Assembly (NCBI RefSeq): GCF_019029495.1
Contig: NZ_JAERQM010000003.1
Span: 62,001-126,000, forward strand
Direction: 5' to 3'
Origin: Falsiroseomonas oleicola
GTDB lineage: Bacteria; Pseudomonadota; Alphaproteobacteria; Acetobacterales; Acetobacteraceae
DNA: 64,000 nucleotides
The notes under the pieces were generated by a model. That model was given only the letters and a program-made list of their open reading frames with translations, was not told where the DNA came from and made no database searches. The position numbers were made by a program, and so were the translations under genes. Shown here in pieces: positions 55,179-63,312 of this stretch; within the stretch, counting starts at the first letter, position 1, and each line of letters opens with the position of its first letter.

Positions 55179-56591
55179 ATGGAGTCTCTCGACGCACTGA
55201 CGCTGGCGCGCATCCAGTTCGCCTTCACCGTCAGCGCCCACATCATCTTCCCCGCCTTCTCCATCGGGCTGGCGAGCTTCCTCGCCGTGCTGAACGGCCT
55301 CTACCTCAGCACCGGTCGCGCCGTGTTCCTCGACCTGTTCAACTACTGGAAGAAGATCTTCGCCGTCGCCTTCAGCATGGGCGTCGTCTCCGGCATCGTC
55401 ATGAGCTACCAGTTCGGCACGAATTGGAGCGTCTTCTCCGACAAGGTCGGCCCGGTCATCGGCCCGTTGATGGGCTACGAGGTGCTCTCGGCCTTCTTCC
55501 TCGAGGCGGGCTTCCTCGGCGTGATGCTGTTCGGGCGCGAGCGCGTCGGGCCGAGACTGCATTTCCTGGCGACGCTGATGGTCGCGCTCGGCACCTTCAT
55601 GTCGGCCTTCTGGATACTGGCGGTGAACAGCTGGATGCAGACGCCGGCGGGCTACGGCATGAACGATGTCGGCCAGTTCATCGTGACCGACTGGTGGTCG
55701 GTGATTTTCAATCCATCCTTCCCGTATCGCCTCGTGCACATGGTGCTGGCTGCCTACCTCACCACCGCCTTCGTGGTGGGTGCGGTCGGCGCGCTGCACC
55801 TGCTGCGCAACCGCGCGCAGCCGGCGGCGCGCATCATGTTCTCCATGGCGATGTGGATGGCGGCCATCGTGGCCCCCATCCAGATCATGGCCGGCGACTT
55901 CCACGGCCTGAACACGCTCGAATACCAGCCCGCCAAGCTCGCCGCGATGGAGGGCCATTTCGAGACCCATGCCGGCGCGCCGCTGATCCTGTTCGGCATC
56001 CCCAACGCCGCCGAGGGCCGCATCGACTACCGCGTGCAGATCCCGAATCTCGGCGCCTTCATCCTGACGCATGACTGGAATGGGGTGGTCCGGGGCCTGA
56101 ACGAGTTCCCGCCCGATCAGCGCCCGCCCGTCGGCATCGTGTTCTGGAGTTTCCGGATCATGGTCGGCATCGGCTTCCTGATGCTGGGCATCGGTATCTG
56201 GAGCCTGTGGCTGCGCTATCGGCGCGCCCTCTATGACGCGCCTTGGCTGCATCGCGCGGCCATCGTGATGGGCCCCTCCGGCTTCGCCGCCGTGCTGGCC
56301 GGTTGGATCACCACGGAGGTCGGCCGCCAGCCCTGGACGGTGCAGGGGCTGCTGACCACCGCGCAATCGGCCTCGCCGATCGATGCGGCGGCCGTCGGTG
56401 CCTCATTGATCGCCTTTGTCGTCGTCTACTTCGCGCTGTTCGGCGCCGGCACCTTCTACATCCTGCGGCTGATGAACCAGCCCGCACATGGCCATGAACC
56501 TGGCCTGCCGGCGGAGCAGCCGATCCGCGCCGGCGGCATCATGCCGGGGCCGGTGATGGCGGCGAAGAACGCCCTGCCGGTCGCGGAATAG
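55179..56591 (+). CDS. cydA: Cyanide-insensitive (bd-type) quinol oxidase subunit I
   Basis: 470 residues. There are nine membrane helices with the family start LTLARIQFAFTVSAHIIFPAFSIG (heme-ligand His21), GVVSGIVMSYQFGTNWSVFSDKVG, EAGFLGVMLFGRERVGPRLHFLATLMVALGTFMSAFWI and GWITTEVGRQPWTVQGLL. The Q-loop is short, so it is of the CIO group (cioA). With subunit II it oxidises quinol and reduces oxygen without proton pumping. Such oxidases tolerate cyanide, sulfide and NO. It lies divergently from the NsrR-like gene and 9 bases before subunit II. Confidence 0.96.
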   Translation: MESLDALTLARIQFAFTVSAHIIFPAFSIGLASFLAVLNGLYLSTGRAVFLDLFNYWKKIFAVAFSMGVVSGIVMSYQFGTNWSVFSDKVGPVIGPLMGYEVLSAFFLEAGFLGVMLFGRERVGPRLHFLATLMVALGTFMSAFWILAVNSWMQTPAGYGMNDVGQFIVTDWWSVIFNPSFPYRLVHMVLAAYLTTAFVVGAVGALHLLRNRAQPAARIMFSMAMWMAAIVAPIQIMAGDFHGLNTLEYQPAKLAAMEGHFETHAGAPLILFGIPNAAEGRIDYRVQIPNLGAFILTHDWNGVVRGLNEFPPDQRPPVGIVFWSFRIMVGIGFLMLGIGIWSLWLRYRRALYDAPWLHRAAIVMGPSGFAAVLAGWITTEVGRQPWTVQGLLTTAQSASPIDAAAVGASLIAFVVVYFALFGAGTFYILRLMNQPAHGHEPGLPAEQPIRAGGIMPGPVMAAKNALPVAE

Positions 56592-56600
56592 GAGGCTTCC

Positions 56601-57605
56601 ATGACACTCGATCTTCCCCTGATCTGGGCCGGCCTGATTGCCTTCGCGGTCCTCGCCTATGTCGTGCTCGACGGCTTCGACCTCGGCGTCGGCATCCTGT
56701 TCCCGCTGATCCGCGGCGAGCCGCATCGTGACGAGGCGATGAATTCGGTGGCGCCCGTTTGGGACGGGAACGAGACCTGGCTGGTACTCGGCGGTGGCGG
56801 GCTGCTGGCGGTGTTCCCGCTGGCCTACGCGATCATCATGTCGGCGCTGTATGTGCCGATCATCGTCATGCTGCTGGCGCTGGTGTTCCGCGGCGTCGCC
56901 TTCGAGTTCCGCTGGAAGACGCAGCGCGGCAAGTTCCTGTGGGACTGGTCCTTCGCCGCGGGCTCGACCCTCGCGGCCTTCGCCCAGGGCGTCGCGCTTG
57001 GCGCGCTGGTGCAGGGCATCCCCGTCGCCAACCGCGCCTATGCGGGCGGCTGGTGGGACTGGCTGACGCCGTTCAGTATCCTCACCGGCTTCGCGCTGGT
57101 CATCGGCTATGCCTTGCTCGGCGCCACCTGGCTGATCTGGAAGACCGAAGGCCATGTGCAGCGCCGCGCCTATGACATCGCCTTCTGGGTCGCACCGGCG
57201 ACGCTGCTGCTGATCGGTGTGGTCAGTCTCTGGACCCCCTTTCTCAGCGGCCCCTACATGGCGCGCTGGTTCGCCTGGCCGCAGGTGCTGCTGGTGGCCG
57301 TGGTGCCGCTCGCCGTGCTCGGCGCCGGCTTTCTGCTGATCCGTGGCCTGACGGAGCGGCGCGAGATTGCGCCCTTCCTCGCCTCGCTGCTGCTGTTCGT
57401 GCTGTGTTTCATCGGGCTCGGCATCAGCTTCTTCCCGCATCTCGTGCCGAATTCGGTGACCATCTGGGAAGCGGCGGCACCCGACAACAGCCTGTCCTTC
57501 CTGCTGGTTGGCGGCGTGGTGCTGATCCCCATCATCCTCGCCTACACCGCTTATGCCTATTGGGTGTTCCGCGGAAAGGTGAACGCTGCCGGGGGCTATC
57601 ACTGA
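56601..57605 (+). CDS. cydB: Cyanide-insensitive (bd-type) quinol oxidase subunit II
   Basis: 334 residues with eight to nine membrane helices. Family landmarks are LPLIWAGLIAFAVLAYVVLDGFDLGVGILFPLIR, NSVAPVWDGNETWLVLGGGGLLAVFPLAYA, FRGVAFEFRWKT and HLVPNSVTIWEAAAPDNSL. It is the partner of CydA; the stop overlaps the next start (TGATG), so the small subunit is coupled. AGGAGG precedes the ATG. Confidence 0.96.
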   Translation: MTLDLPLIWAGLIAFAVLAYVVLDGFDLGVGILFPLIRGEPHRDEAMNSVAPVWDGNETWLVLGGGGLLAVFPLAYAIIMSALYVPIIVMLLALVFRGVAFEFRWKTQRGKFLWDWSFAAGSTLAAFAQGVALGALVQGIPVANRAYAGGWWDWLTPFSILTGFALVIGYALLGATWLIWKTEGHVQRRAYDIAFWVAPATLLLIGVVSLWTPFLSGPYMARWFAWPQVLLVAVVPLAVLGAGFLLIRGLTERREIAPFLASLLLFVLCFIGLGISFFPHLVPNSVTIWEAAAPDNSLSFLLVGGVVLIPIILAYTAYAYWVFRGKVNAAGGYH

Positions 57606-58220: not shown

Positions 58221-58662
58221 TCCGAACCGCCGCATGCTTCTGGCCGCCGCAGGCCAGGTCGACAACTTCGCCGGCCCCGGTCAATGCGATCATCACCACC
58301 ATCGCCAGCCGAACCATCGCGCGGGACGCTTGCTGTCGGCATCTTCTGGCTCCGGGCCGTTCAGCTTCGCGGTTTCGGCGAGGGGGTCGATGATGGCGGC
58401 GCTGCCCGCCATGACCGCCACATCGGCGAAACCATCACCATCAGCTCAAGACCGGGGTCGGCTGAGACTTACGCATCGCCTCATGCCTGCCAGCACCAGT
58501 CGCACCAGACTGGTCCGCGACGCCATGCTGTGCTGACGCATCGAGCGCGACGAGCAGGAGATGAAGCGCTCGCCAACTCGCCCGCAGCCTGCCTCGATGC
58601 CCATGCTGCCAACGCCTCAACGGCGCCAACTCACGACACAGTGGTAAACTTCACGGAGATGA
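58221..58662. other. Gap without recognisable genes, left flank of the integrative element
   Basis: No ORF here has a plausible start, ribosome site or family motif. Short frames up to 247 residues on the minus strand run through the dsrE gene and are shadows. It ends at the tRNA-Gly remnant and is presumably chromosomal sequence that once followed the tRNA gene. Confidence 0.6.
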
Positions 58663-58708
58663 TGGAGCGGGCGGGGGGAATCGAACCCCCGACATTCAGC
58701 TTGGGAAA
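58663..58708 (-). other. attachment-site remnant: 3' end of tRNA-Gly(CCC)
   Basis: Read on the minus strand, the 46 bases run from the anticodon loop TTCCCAA and 3' stem GCTGA, through the variable loop and T-arm GGGGG-TTCGATT-CCCCC, to the acceptor 3' strand CGCCCGC, discriminator T and an encoded CCA. The expected 5' half (acceptor, D-arm, 5' anticodon stem TCAGC) is absent; GCCCT stands there instead. Homology beginning in the anticodon loop is typical of attachment sites of P4-type integrases, and one such gene lies 205 bases away. Confidence 0.85.
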
Positions 58709-58912
58709 GGGCCGCCGGGCGGCCTAAAGTGCGGGGTGCGGTGACGGCCTGAAGGTGAAAGCAAGGATTTTCAGCCTCTTGCAATCTCCCGCAATCTCAC
58801 CGCGTATCTGGCCGTCTCGCCGGATTTGTGCCCCCGGTGTGCCCCCCGGCGAATCCAGGGGCATTTTCGGGGGCACAGCCGATAAGAATTGTCCCCGCCG
58901 GAGCCCGCCCGC

Positions 58913-60238
58913 GTGAAAGCCAAGCTGACCGTCCCCTACATCGATGCGCTGCGCCCGCCGGAAACGGGCCGGGTGGAGATCAGGGACACCATCGCGCCGG
59001 GCCTGGTGCTGCGCATCACCTCCGGCGGGGTGATGACATGGAGCCTCCGCGCCCGCACGGCAGATGGGCGGCAGACGCGCCCTCGGCTGGGCACCTATCC
59101 CGCCCTGTCGCTGGCCGATGCCAGGAAGGCCGCCACGGCCATGCTGACGGCGGTCCAGAAGGGCGGCGATCCGGTGGCGGAGAAGCGGGCCGCGCGGGCT
59201 GCCAGGGTGCAGGCGGTGGCCGCCAAGGGCGCCACGGTCGCCGCCAGGCTGGCGGAGTGGCAGGCGGCGCGCCTCGCCGATCCCGCCGCGCCATGGTCCA
59301 CCAAATATGCGGCCGAGATCGCGCGGACCTGCAACCAGGCCATCATCCCCAAGCTGGGCGCCCTGCAACTGGACACCACGACCCGGGAGCAATGGACCAA
59401 GGTCATCACCGCCTGGCGCCAGCTGGTGACGAAGCCGAAGGCGGTTCCGCCCGGCACCAAGCGCCGTCCTGCCGGCGCCCCGGCGCGAGACGGCTCCGGC
59501 GCCGCCGCCTTCCTGTACCGCACCGTCTCCGCCTTCCTGAACTTCGCCGAGGCCCATGGCTGGATCCCGGCGCCGCTGCTGCCTCGGAAGGGCGCTTCGG
59601 TCATCGCCCCGCCGCCAGCGGCGCGCGCCCGGGTGCTGACGGAAGCCGAGCTGGTGGCGGTTTGGAAGGCCGCGGACCGGGAGCCGCCGAAGCTGCGCGC
59701 CTTCATCCGTCTGGCGATCCTGACCGGCGCGCGGGAGGGGGAGGTGGCGGAAATCTCGGCAGGGGAGGTGGATCGGGCGGCCGGCCTCTGGGCGATTCCG
59801 GGCGTGCGGACGAAGAACGGCCTCGGCTACACCCTGCCGCTGTCACCCCTGGCCCTGGCTGAGCTGGGCGCCGTCTGGCCGGCGGAGGAACCCGCCGCCG
59901 CCGATCGGCTGTTGGGCCGCACTGCCTTGCGCGGTTTCCAGGGATTTGGGCGGTTGAAAATCCGGGTGGACGCGGCCAGCAAGGTGACCGGCTGGCGCTG
60001 GCATGACATCCGCCGGACGGTTCGTACCGGCATGACGCGCCTGGGCGTGCCACGGGACCATGCCGAGGCTGCCATCAACCACGTCTCTGGCCGCACCATG
60101 CTGGAACGGACCTATGACCGCCACGACTACGCGCCGGAGGTCCTGGCGGCGCTGGCGCGCTGGCAGGGGCATGTGGCGGGGCTGGTCGGTGCCGGCGCGG
60201 AGGTGGTGCCGCTTCGCAGGCCGACACGCAACGCGTAG
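58913..60238 (+). CDS. int: P4-type tyrosine integrase (DUF4102 N-terminus)
   Basis: 441 residues from a GTG at 58913 with CGGAGC upstream; a TTG at 58889 would add eight. The N-terminal arm-binding domain has TVPYIDALRPPETGRVEIRD and GLVLRITSGGVMTWSLRAR, RLGTYPALSLADARKAA (DUF4102 type). Catalytic residues are Arg274 (TGAREGEV), His364-x2-Arg367 (WHDIRRT), His390 (INHVSGRTM) and Tyr401 (LERTYDRH). It integrates and excises the element at tRNA-Gly. It lacks signs of decay, so it may still be active. Confidence 0.93.
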   Translation: MKAKLTVPYIDALRPPETGRVEIRDTIAPGLVLRITSGGVMTWSLRARTADGRQTRPRLGTYPALSLADARKAATAMLTAVQKGGDPVAEKRAARAARVQAVAAKGATVAARLAEWQAARLADPAAPWSTKYAAEIARTCNQAIIPKLGALQLDTTTREQWTKVITAWRQLVTKPKAVPPGTKRRPAGAPARDGSGAAAFLYRTVSAFLNFAEAHGWIPAPLLPRKGASVIAPPPAARARVLTEAELVAVWKAADREPPKLRAFIRLAILTGAREGEVAEISAGEVDRAAGLWAIPGVRTKNGLGYTLPLSPLALAELGAVWPAEEPAAADRLLGRTALRGFQGFGRLKIRVDAASKVTGWRWHDIRRTVRTGMTRLGVPRDHAEAAINHVSGRTMLERTYDRHDYAPEVLAALARWQGHVAGLVGAGAEVVPLRRPTRNA

Positions 60239-60605: not shown

Positions 60606-60950
60606 CTATTCCGGACGGGTGTCTGCCATCGTGACATTGCGCCCGCCTGCCGCCAGGGCCTGACCCAGGGCATCTATGGCGGTGGCAGTTGGCAGGCCCT
60701 TCACCTCAACGGAAGTGCCGTCTGCCAACCGGATCTGCACGAAGCGCGAAGCGCGGGCCTTGATCCACTCGACGATGATCTTGGTGACGAACGGCGCCAG
60801 CGCGACCGTGATGGCGACTGTTTCGGCCGAGGCATAGACCGCGCCGGGCCGGGGCAGCGGGCGTTCGAAGGGAATTTCCGCCTTCGCGAGCATGGCGAGG
60901 AAATCGTCACGTCCGTGACGAAACACGGTGATGTGGCTGAGCTCGCTCAT
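60606..60950 (-). CDS. Small single-helix membrane-associated protein, partner of XRE regulator
   Basis: 114 residues. A short polar N-terminus (SELSHITVFRHGRDDFLAMLAK) precedes a hydrophobic stretch (TVAITVALAPFVTKIIVEWIK, about 43-63). A small beta-like tail then reads RFVQIRLADGTSVEVKGL. The helix, the WIKAR turn and the xxIRLADGxxVEV strand pair resemble the effector-associated constant components seen in conflict systems, but this is a weak similarity by eye. Its start overlaps the XRE gene stop by 4 bases (ATGA), so the two are translated together. No function can be assigned. Confidence 0.65.
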   Translation of the reverse strand: MSELSHITVFRHGRDDFLAMLAKAEIPFERPLPRPGAVYASAETVAITVALAPFVTKIIVEWIKARASRFVQIRLADGTSVEVKGLPTATAIDALGQALAAGGRNVTMADTRPE

Positions 60951-61225
60951 GATGCGCCGGCCTTGCGCAGCCGAACGCCTGGCCCGCCCCCATTCTCCGC
61001 GATGAACTCCACGCCGGCCGCTTCGAGGGCGGCGCGGATGGCCGCGAGGGTTCGAGGTTGCAGAACCTCGCCCTTTTCCAGGCGCACCACGGTGTCTGCT
61101 GATACGCCTGCCGCAGCGGCCAACTCCCTCACCCCGAGGCCAACTGCGGCCCGCGCCATCTTCGACTGGACTGCTGCCAACTGAACCACGTTCGGAAAGC
61201 CTTGCGTCGTGCTGATACGACGCAT
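60947..61225 (-). CDS. XRE-family helix-turn-helix protein
   Basis: 92 residues from the ATG at 61225; internal starts such as the Met at 61159 are possible. The HTH spans about 22-80: KMARAAVGLGVRELAAAAGVSADTVVRLEKGE, followed by LQPRTLAAIRAALEAAGVEFI and a basic end. This is the common stand-alone XRE form in mobile elements, similar in layout to antitoxins and immunity repressors. It precedes the 114-residue membrane-associated protein with a 4-base overlap. An inverted repeat covers its start codon and may be its own operator. Confidence 0.83.
   Translation of the reverse strand: MRRISTTQGFPNVVQLAAVQSKMARAAVGLGVRELAAAAGVSADTVVRLEKGEVLQPRTLAAIRAALEAAGVEFIAENGGGPGVRLRKAGAS
61203..61224. 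promoter_or_regulatory. Inverted repeat over the XRE gene start
   Basis: TGCGTCGT-GCTGAT-ACGACGCA: perfect 8-bp arms around a 6-bp spacer, ending on the start codon of the XRE gene. A second inverted repeat (GTTCTGA / TCAGAAC, arms 13 apart) lies close by in the divergent spacer at about 61236-61262. Either could bind the XRE protein. Confidence 0.5.
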
Positions 61226-61335: not shown

Positions 61336-61794
61336 ATGGCTGCTGTCCTCACTACACCCACGCCTTCCCGGCGTGGAGTGCTTGCCTGCACCTCTGCTGC
61401 TGGCCTCGCCGCAATGGCGGCCTCCGGCCTGGGTGACATCGCCCCGGAAGCGGATGCGGTGCTGGTGGACCTGGCGCAGCGGTGGCGCGCCGCCTGGCCG
61501 GAAGTGGATCGCATCTGCGATGATCTCGAAGCCGCCGAGCTGCGGGGCGATGTGGCAGGCCAGGCGGCGTGCCACCGGCGCAGCGGCGCTGTCTTCGCGA
61601 CGCTGGCGACAATCGAAGAGGCGATTGCGGCGGCGCCGGCCCATGGCGCCGAGGGCCTCGCGGTCAAGGCTGCGCTGCTGGCCCGCGTGTTCCTCGGCCC
61701 GCATGAGCCGCTGCCCCGCAACCGGAATTTGGCGCGATCCCTCGCCGCGGATGCGCTGCGCCTGGCACCCTTCGCCGCTGAGGTGGAGGCATGA
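61336..61794 (+). CDS. Unknown protein with RRGVLA start, paralogue 1 of 3
   Basis: 152 residues from the ATG at 61336, with GGAGG 8 bases or so upstream. The N-terminus PTPSRRGVLACTSAAGLAAMA is twin-arginine-like with a short hydrophobic stretch. The rest is helical and acidic (VDLAQRWRAAWPEVDRIC, ELRGDVAGQAACHRRSG). It includes IEEAIAAAPAHGAEGLAVKAALLA, a motif shared in part with the next two proteins (PA, then G, then K). It overlaps the next gene by 4 bases. No family was recognised. Confidence 0.72.
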   Translation: MAAVLTTPTPSRRGVLACTSAAGLAAMAASGLGDIAPEADAVLVDLAQRWRAAWPEVDRICDDLEAAELRGDVAGQAACHRRSGAVFATLATIEEAIAAAPAHGAEGLAVKAALLARVFLGPHEPLPRNRNLARSLAADALRLAPFAAEVEA

Positions 61795-62312
61795 AGCCCT
61801 CATCATCCCGGCGTGGAATCCTCGCCTGCGCGCTGGCGGCGCGCCTCGCCGAACTGGCGGCCGCTGGCCCGACTGACCAAGCCGCCAGCCTGGCGCCGCA
61901 AGCTGGCGGCCTGGTCGCCGCGAGCGGCAGCGGGATCGCCAACGATCCCTGTTTCCTGGCGGGCCTTCGGTTCGGCCAGGCCTCTGCCGCCTATCGGGCG
62001 GCCAGCCTGACCGTCTGGTCTGGTTCGAGCGCGGACCCGCTCTATCGCGAGTGGACCTCCGCCGCTGCGCAAATCCTGGCCGCGCCGGCCCATAGCCTTG
62101 GCGGTGTCCTGGCCAAGCTCATCATGGCGTTGGACCAGATCGGCATCGCCCGGGAGGACGCGGAAGCCCTCGAGCCCTGCGAGGTGGCGGAGCATGCCTT
62201 GCTGGAATGCATCCGCGCCCTTTCGGAGATCACGGGAATCAGCCTGGACGCGATGGGGGCGGACTTCGTCAGCGCCAAGCTCCGCGCCCCGGCGGCGGAG
62301 GCGCGGGCATGA
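61791..62312 (+). CDS. Unknown protein with RRGILA start, paralogue 2 of 3
   Basis: 173 residues. It begins SSSRRGILACALAARLAELAAAG; the arginine and glutamate in the stretch make it a poor export signal. A Gly/Ser-rich linker follows, then a helical domain with AAQILAAPAHSLGGVLAKLIMALDQI, the shared motif, and EVAEHALLECIRALSEITG. It overlaps its neighbours on both sides by 4 bases (ATGA), so all are translationally coupled. The function is unknown. Confidence 0.72.
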   Translation: MKPSSSRRGILACALAARLAELAAAGPTDQAASLAPQAGGLVAASGSGIANDPCFLAGLRFGQASAAYRAASLTVWSGSSADPLYREWTSAAAQILAAPAHSLGGVLAKLIMALDQIGIAREDAEALEPCEVAEHALLECIRALSEITGISLDAMGADFVSAKLRAPAAEARA

Positions 62313-63091
62313 CGAACGCAACCACCCGCCGCGGCGTCCTGGCCTTTGCGCCGGCCGCGCTGTTGCTGTCCGTCGCGCAGCCTGCGGAGGCGCCGCCTCT
62401 GCCTCCGGCGACGCCCGTGGATGCCCTGCCGGAAGCCGATCGCCGGCTGCTGGCGCTGCGTGAATCCGCCAGGGCGGGAAGTGCGGCCTATTACGAAGCC
62501 ATGCGGGCCGGCTGGGCGGCCGATGAGGCCGGCGACCGCGCTGCCCGCGCCGAAGCGGACGGCGCCCAGGAAGACGCCTGGGCGGCCTATGTGACCGCGC
62601 TGGAGGAAATGGCGGAGATTCCAGCGGCAGGCTTCGCCGGCGTGCTGGCGAAGCTGTCTGCCACGGATGCCTACACGGATATCCACTGCGCCGCGAACGC
62701 CGAGGAATTTGCCACCCTCGCCAGCGCCGCGGCCGATGCCGCGCGCATCCTGGCGGAGCTCGGCCTGGCCGCCGCCGCGCCGGCGCCTGTGCCGTCCCGC
62801 GATTGCGCGCTGCTGACCTGGTGCGAGCAATGGCACGAAGCCGCCATCGAGCGCGAAGAGCGTTTCGACCTGGCGCCGGAGACGATGACCGCATCGGAGC
62901 TTCGGGCGGAAGCGGCGCTGCGGCACCGCATGGCCGATCGGATGAGTCTCATCATCGGCACCCCGGCCCTGACCCGGGAAGGGCGGGTGGCGAAGGCGGA
63001 GATCCTTGAAGGCTATCTGGACGACCGGCGGGACATGGTCGCCCGGCTGGCGGCATCCCTGGTTCAGGATGTGACGCGGGGTGCCGCATGA
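62309..63091 (+). CDS. Unknown protein with RRGVLA start, paralogue 3 of 3
   Basis: 260 residues from the ATG at 62309; the frame is open upstream, but the Met in the ATGA overlap fits the operon. TTRRGVLAFAPAALLLSVAQPAEA is a credible Tat signal with an AEA cleavage site. The mature part is helical: ADRRLLALRESARAGSAAYYEAM, then the shared EEMAEIPAAGFAGVLAKLSA, then a longer C-terminal domain (EQWHEAAIEREERFD, RVAKAEILEGYLDDRRDMVARLAASL). It is the longest of the three. The function is unknown. Confidence 0.73.
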   Translation: MTNATTRRGVLAFAPAALLLSVAQPAEAPPLPPATPVDALPEADRRLLALRESARAGSAAYYEAMRAGWAADEAGDRAARAEADGAQEDAWAAYVTALEEMAEIPAAGFAGVLAKLSATDAYTDIHCAANAEEFATLASAAADAARILAELGLAAAAPAPVPSRDCALLTWCEQWHEAAIEREERFDLAPETMTASELRAEAALRHRMADRMSLIIGTPALTREGRVAKAEILEGYLDDRRDMVARLAASLVQDVTRGAA

Positions 63092-63312
63092 CAGCCCGCG
63101 CCATCTGCGCCATGCGGCGCGCGCAGCGCCGGGCTGTCCGCGGCATCACCTATGGCGAGGTGCAGATGCTGGCCCTTGTCGTCACGGTGCTGGGCGAGGA
63201 TGCCGCGCGCGCCCTGGTCGCCGCGATGCCCGTGGCCGATGGGCCGGATGCGGTGGCCTGGGCGGTCGCCGAGGCCGCCCGCACGGCGGCGCCGGCCAGG
63301 GCGGCGGCGTGA
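63088..63312 (+). CDS. Small unknown protein at the end of the RRG operon
   Basis: 74 residues, beginning in the previous stop (ATGA overlap). A basic start (MTARAICAMRRAQRRAVRG) is followed by ITYGEVQMLALVVTVLGEDAARALVAAMPVADGPDAVAWAVAEA, an Ala-rich helical region. There is no signal peptide. The chain of 4-base overlaps supports it as a real gene. The function is unknown. Confidence 0.62.
   Translation: MTARAICAMRRAQRRAVRGITYGEVQMLALVVTVLGEDAARALVAAMPVADGPDAVAWAVAEAARTAAPARAAA

Follow-up and report, generated by a model that had tools for sequence, protein, structure and literature searches.

Three consecutive genes (A, B and C) in the window, a stretch of 64,000 nucleotides (contig C23:62001-126000 of a 5.6-Mb genome), belong to a real protein family that is undescribed in the libraries searched and is common in the taxonomic family to which the window belongs. 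They represent a recurrent gene set of satellite- or prophage-like elements of Alphaproteobacteria. Judging from the N-termini, it is very probable that proteins of this type are exported from a mobile element. The task that fits best, since the proteins appear exported, diversified and element-borne, would be the exclusion of competing phages in the periplasm by the A-C set; we give this reading a probability of about 0.35.

The four genes and their element

A to C are followed by a fourth gene, D, and lie in an element with an integrase and end repeats, one of which is in a tRNA gene. It is an integrative element, as the sequence-only reading had supposed. The features within the window are as follows.

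58662-58707, no strand: left attachment repeat, 46 bp, copying the 3′ part of tRNA-Gly(CCC) at C23:136741-136786, beyond the window
58889-60238, plus strand: tyrosine integrase (Pfam Arm-DNA-bind_3, 1e-16, and Phage_integrase, 3e-9; phrog_1, 1e-35)
60606-60950, minus strand: EACC1-like small protein (PF19953, E = 7e-4, below the gathering score); overlaps the regulator gene
60947-61225, minus strand: XRE-type regulator, divergent from A-D (HTH_31, 5e-7; HTH_3, 7e-5); similar to the XRE of locus L017
61336-61794, plus strand: gene A, 152 aa; one family unit, Tat-like N-terminus
61791-62312, plus strand: gene B, 173 aa; the most diverged unit; ATGA overlap with A
62309-63091, plus strand: gene C, 260 aa; signal and two family units (about 62432-62758 and 62795-63076)
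63088-63312, plus strand: gene D, 74 aa; no family found; ATGA coupling to C

The 46-bp direct repeat is exact (L009 2663-2708 and 18742-18787, with the tRNA-Gly at L009 18743-18817), and the element measures 16.1 kb, from 58662 to the end of tRNA-Gly(CCC) at C23:136786. Other genes of the element encode a primase (DUF7146/Toprim; phrog_510) and a protein that matches phrog_4523, 'major head and protease protein', over its protease part (7e-25). Another product is small-terminase-like (phrog_57, 1e-10) and more weakly resembles excisionase models (0.001). No role is claimed for the element's 965-aa protein, because it had no match in Pfam or PHROGs. PICI-type satellites combine an integrase, a regulator, a primase and a small-terminase-like gene in about 15 kb. 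With its regulator, primase and small-terminase-like gene in about 15 kb, the window element can be classed by gene content as phage-satellite-like, of the PICI type. The likeness in gene content to PICIs and capsid-forming satellites covers integrase, regulator, primase and small-terminase-like gene; unlike the capsid-forming satellites, the element gave no portal, separate capsid or large terminase in the ten ORFs scanned. It is also possible that the element is a degraded prophage.

Two further observations were made by eye. Cytochrome bd oxidase genes lie just outside the element (55179-57605, plus strand). In L017 the gene after XRE encodes another small protein, which is hydrophobic and differs from the EACC1-like protein of the window (60606-60950, minus strand).

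The four genes had been described as joined by ATGA overlaps, and each junction (61791, 62309 and 63088) is indeed ATGA. The three arginine-pair starts and the common PA-x4-G-x3-K motif were likewise confirmed in A, B and C. The N-termini read SRRGVLA, SRRGILA and TRRGVLA, respectively, giving the pattern [ST]RRG(V/I)LA, and the motif reads PAHGAEGLAVK in A (61636-61668), PAHSLGGVLAK in B and PAAGFAGVLAK in C. C carries a further unit (PALTREGRVAK) that had been missed; it lies in the C-terminal half, with helices at residues 163-256. It is backed by a blastp match to a relative (about 1e-5), by two HMM domains found with a profile free of window rows, and by the predicted model, in which the four-helix layout recurs. 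As C holds two copies, the window has four family units.

Gene D matched nothing in Pfam, PHROGs or NCBIfam, and phmmer over the reading frames of the family loci recovered only D itself. By sequence it is not a member of the family, and it may be unrelated to A-C.

The family and its distribution

The sequence-only reading had seen a diverged gene family without known function; the family was borne out, and no convincing match turned up in the libraries searched. A profile of 64 members without the window rows found A (6e-20), C (7e-21) and B (3e-4). A profile of the mature part, also without window sequences, found A (2e-12), both units of C (5e-12) and, weakly, B (3e-4). With the signal removed, the profile scored 45.6 bits for A, 21.2 and 33.6 bits for C, and 19.1 bits for B (residues 81-118 only), against a best score of 8.4 bits among 600 shuffles. 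B had the lowest profile scores and is therefore the weakest member.

No convincing match was found for A-D in Pfam, NCBIfam or PHROGs, the best being that of C to phrog_16141 (0.0096), nor for the A-C family among PDB sequences. Across 68 members, no family in Pfam, NCBIfam or PHROGs was common to the members; stray matches occurred in 1 of 68, the single stray in the Pfam scan being Dicers_N. Searches of the literature for Tat together with prophages, satellites or exclusion gave no paper on the family, as far as titles and the opening parts of abstracts tell.

Among 150 genomes of the taxonomic family, A matched four, that of the window included. Among the three non-self genomes, G059 alone looked like a true relative; its locus has a divergent XRE gene and an operon of four small proteins with arginine-pair starts. 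The A matches in G105 and G068, and a C match in G041, were by eye unrelated or shadow frames and were not used. The likeness exceeds chance, as A matched a gene in another genus at 1.3e-5 in this search. When the G059 member served as query, 15 of 397 genomes matched, its own included, and gene A of the window was among the matches at 1e-5.

Profile searches widened the family. A 22-member profile that contained the window rows matched 17 genomes (15 of 277 genera) in a sample of 385 from the class, and 101 of 299 genomes (49 of 102 genera) of the same taxonomic family, 9 of the 101 having supplied rows to the query alignment (A2). A 68-member profile matched 29 of 299 genomes sampled across the phylum, of which 27 belong to the class and two do not; several of these matches were partial and weak, including both outside the class. 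Counted among the 29 are also rows confined to the first ~60 profile positions, where the Tat signal lies (for example in G748, G1012, G935, G1006, G1032 and G893); these are weak grounds for membership. Some 10-13 candidates were scored per genome in these searches (15/397, 17/385, 101/299 and 29/299), and the tallies are lower bounds in that respect. They count the window's own genome, and the profiles contain the signal part, so that a few weak matches may be due to the signal alone. Members also occur in Roseococcus sp. SYP-B2431, Acidisphaera sp. L21, Roseomonas nepalensis and an uncultured Rhodospirillales bin, a range that makes Acetobacteraceae the most likely origin of the window. Searches by tblastn with A and one relative found no match in GenBank phages or in plasmids; when viral contigs were scanned with A, A5 and two single proteins, L169 was the one relative to appear.

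A second member was seen on another contig of the window's genome (G000:C6:34213-34602; L108 9766-10197). It is without a Tat-like start, and its locus has a primase-like gene.

Coding conservation, whose absence between relatives had been named as one observation that would speak against the earlier reading, was seen in all seven pairs of relatives compared. pN was 0.19-0.41 and pS 0.57-0.74, with pN below pS throughout; the ratios are rough, because pS was at least 0.70 in six of the seven pairs. The pairs are relatives and not the window copies, for which no close relative was found.

The consensus mature part of the family starts PDAxLLxL and ends SLxxDL, and mature parts cut by rule have a pI below 6 in 66 of 73 cases. 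AlphaFold predicts a helical core for A, with blocks in 41-120 at pLDDT 91-98 and lower confidence at the N-terminus. The helices span 41-69 (with a break at 53), 73-99, 105-120 and 128-143, the motif running into the third, and mature A models as a four-helix domain. The model of C shows one layout twice, with helices within 42-150 and 163-256 (mean pLDDT 80.7, pTM 0.61). Foldseek gave no clear match, with best E-values of about 1 in the PDB and 0.1 in BFVD; a second look gave Z up to 9.8, for coiled-coil bundles of STAT. We rejected STAT coiled coils, ESCRT-III and 14-3-3 as relatives, since helical bundles commonly produce such resemblances.

Paralogue sets and the elements around them

For comparison of loci, 73 family genes, fragments included, were gathered from 42 family loci (the best matches, one per genome, plus L009 and L017), with genes called by a simple codon-position script. 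Seventeen of 47 clusters hold two to four family genes, one of the 17 being a pair of remnants. Of 26 gene junctions, 19 overlap (15 by 4 nt and four by 1 nt), two of them in the window. Copies from the same locus share a mean identity of 20.3% (40 pairs), compared with 21.1% for copies from different loci (2238 pairs), and the nearest row was the own-locus sibling in only two of 45 units having a sibling (L115 and L126). In the tree, the L115 pair were the sole same-locus sisters. With few columns behind the tree and 37 of its 65 forks open, only this pair and the array pairs named next were used. Order is common to arrays in two groups: genes 10127 and 10564 of L090 correspond to genes 1 and 2 of L095, while genes 2 and 3 of L089 correspond to genes 2 and 3 of L110, with L102 6258 joining the first of these. 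By these comparisons the sets do not come from recent duplications; the paralogues are kept as sets and probably act together.

Family fragments were seen at L090 4742-5137; an intact array of four genes lies about 4.5 kb downstream of them, which suggests that an older array was lost.

The surroundings of the family were compared with 36 control stretches, placed by us in some of the same genomes. Integrase markers occurred in 22 of 42 family loci and in none of the 36 controls; the corresponding figures were 15/42 and 0/36 for the 'rep' marker, 16/42 and 2/36 for primase, and 19/42 and 1/36 for XRE. Any mobile-element marker, with XRE and AlpA uncounted, was found in 30/42 family loci against 2/36 controls. 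Marker labels ('tape', 'rep' and so on) were assigned by eye, and the XRE count comes from one seed. The seeds were taken from the family loci themselves; own-locus seeds were left out, but a bias towards such elements remains. A divergent XRE gene lies at most 1.1 kb upstream of the family genes in 17 of the 42 loci, and by eye also in the main array of L090 and in L017, the locus that supplied the XRE seed.

The suggested check of whether homologues always lie near integrases showed that they often do but not always: 12 of the 42 loci showed no mobile-element marker. The suggestion of an undescribed cargo system held in part: the family is undescribed in the libraries searched, but rather than a one-off it is a recurrent gene set, placed behind a divergent XRE gene in 17/42 loci.

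Some relatives lie among packaging genes. The viral contig L169 (IMGVR_UViG_2645728001_000002; 15.6 kb, of which 13.9 kb was covered) has a family member between an integrase on one side and a primase, portal, capsid-protease, head-tail adaptor and small terminase on the other; none of the ten proteins scanned matched a tail family. It looks like a capsid-forming satellite, with which it shares the portal, capsid-protease, head-tail adaptor and small terminase. L097 and L101 are also like such satellites. L097 has a portal, protease and capsid (four proteins scanned); L101 has a large terminase (one protein scanned), and a portal and capsid by similarity to L097.

Small proteins near family genes were also noted by eye. 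One, with 'PGNA' towards its C-terminal part, follows the family gene in three loci (L097 9600-9824, L105 9575-9805 and L021 2180-2386); its N-terminal half is hydrophobic, and it is possibly a partner of the family gene. Small acidic proteins with 'RIEALI' or similar, then an acidic tail, were seen at L017 7509-7814, L117 9409-9750 and L168 4248-4628.

Export and possible role

A twin-arginine [ST]RR with hydrophobic residues behind it is present in A, B and C. Under a fixed rule, a Tat-like start was found in 51 of 73 family genes; the remaining genes of these loci gave 23 of 480, and control regions gave 54 of 568. The family start codons had been picked by script to keep the arginine pair in frame, which favours the family count. 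Among the 51 Tat-like starts, S or T precedes the arginine pair in 35, and in 34 the residue at +4, counted from the first R, is L. AxA occurs in 47 of the 51, a count without control in proteins that are rich in alanine. The general Tat-signal model of NCBIfam, TIGR01409, matched 2 of 68 members (best 0.0012). The N-terminus of the profile weakly matched tyrosinase co-factor/MelC chains in the PDB (E = 0.008 to 0.4); MelC is a Tat substrate. The host genome encodes TatC (2e-73). Given Tat-type N-termini, the host Tat system would export the folded, acidic four-helix domains of A-C.

The sequence-only reading had found a convincing Tat site in the third gene alone. Cleavage sites are by eye clear in C and poor in A and B; the arginine-pair start, however, is a Tat-like trait of the family as a whole. 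The poor sites would also suit a reading in which the window copies are in decay while the set is functional elsewhere, as would their branches, the longest in the tree (B 2.16, A 1.76, C1 1.66), and the good alignment of B only around the motif. We consider this very improbable; the four frames are open, the ATGA overlaps are kept, and the models of A and C show the full helix layout.

A cytoplasmic location was also weighed. The arginine-pair and hydrophobic start could be a membrane anchor or dispensable, with the helical domains acting in the cytoplasm, for example in replication control or head assembly. Such roles would agree with the 22 of 73 members that lack a Tat-like start by the same rule, the second copy in the window's genome (L108) among them, and with the primase-like or capsid-like genes of some of the same loci. 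Most starts are nevertheless Tat-typical, with S/T before the arginine pair and L at +4, and the conserved mature domain begins behind the arginine-pair part, where model confidence is low. A cytoplasmic role seems decidedly unlikely, and export is preferred.

Accessory exported proteins of phage-like elements are known; the searched libraries do not describe this family of them. PMC3952083 describes Ltp of the Streptococcus thermophilus phage TP-J34 as an exported prophage superinfection-exclusion lipoprotein. Its repeat domain, in which negative charges are important, interacts with the incoming phage's tape measure protein, and its gene lies in the lysogeny module and adjoins the integrase. 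To that extent, Ltp and the present family are alike in prophage-like origin, in their (here probable) export, in a repeat domain, in negative charges and in a gene position by the integrase, whereas Ltp is lipid-anchored and from a Gram-positive host. Compared through a Pfam scan of 68 members, the family showed no relation to the Ltp lipoprotein family. The same paper names Glo, of the Vibrio cholerae phage K139, as a soluble periplasmic exclusion protein (PMC3952083). The likeness of Glo is in the role proposed here, compared by description only, and nothing links the families. One PICI is reported to contribute to superinfection immunity (PMC11773190).

A-C are the first genes of the element's rightward operon, and the XRE gene reads the opposite way. 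Once exported, the paralogues would work jointly beyond the inner membrane, either in the periplasm or on that membrane's outer side, and would block entry of competing phage DNA in the manner of soluble or tethered superinfection-exclusion proteins. Several paralogues could cover different phages or form a hetero-complex. The broader proposal, that ordered sets of old paralogues of a large four-helix family in early operons of alphaproteobacterial satellites and prophages form a Tat-exported periplasmic module of inter-phage conflict, with several specificities or as a hetero-complex, is tentative and on the unlikely side.

Known anti-phage defence proteins were considered as relatives and rejected. 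PADLOC-DB models matched at most 2 of the 68 members each (Cmr5, two members, best 1.9e-4; HEase, a homing endonuclease, one member, 1.7e-4; four further models at 0.017 or weaker), and matches in one or two members per model were read as chance.

The position of the genes bears on the role in another way. If the XRE protein represses the A-D promoter, the proteins would be absent in a lysogen, which counts against exclusion. Since an early-operon position is partly at odds with exclusion in the resting state, control of lysis timing or of a helper phage becomes the first rival: the set would work at the envelope once the element is induced, delaying or promoting lysis, or protecting the cell as the element exploits a helper phage. 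Divergence from an XRE gene in 17/42 loci, Tat-like export signals and the presence of some members in elements with capsid and packaging genes all agree with this. No lysis-type Pfam family was found among 68 members, however, and none of 30 element proteins, from a chosen part of the loci, matched a PHROGs lysis family. We regard a role in induction or lysis as unlikely.

A lysogenic-conversion trait that helps the host, for example in envelope stress or biofilm, and has no part in phage competition would likewise account for Tat-like signals and for an accessory distribution (101/299 genomes of the taxonomic family). In 17/42 loci, though, the family genes start right behind the divergent regulator, which is a core and not an end position, and such a trait is improbable. 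Exclusion in the periplasm remains our preferred reading.

About one third of the sampled genomes in the taxonomic family, and some other Alphaproteobacteria, match a family that no searched library names; whatever its task, many 'hypothetical' genes can be delimited with the profile. If exclusion is true, Tat export of proteins from phage elements would be directly testable, and sets that exclude phages would form a periplasmic layer of mobile-element conflict that annotation has missed.
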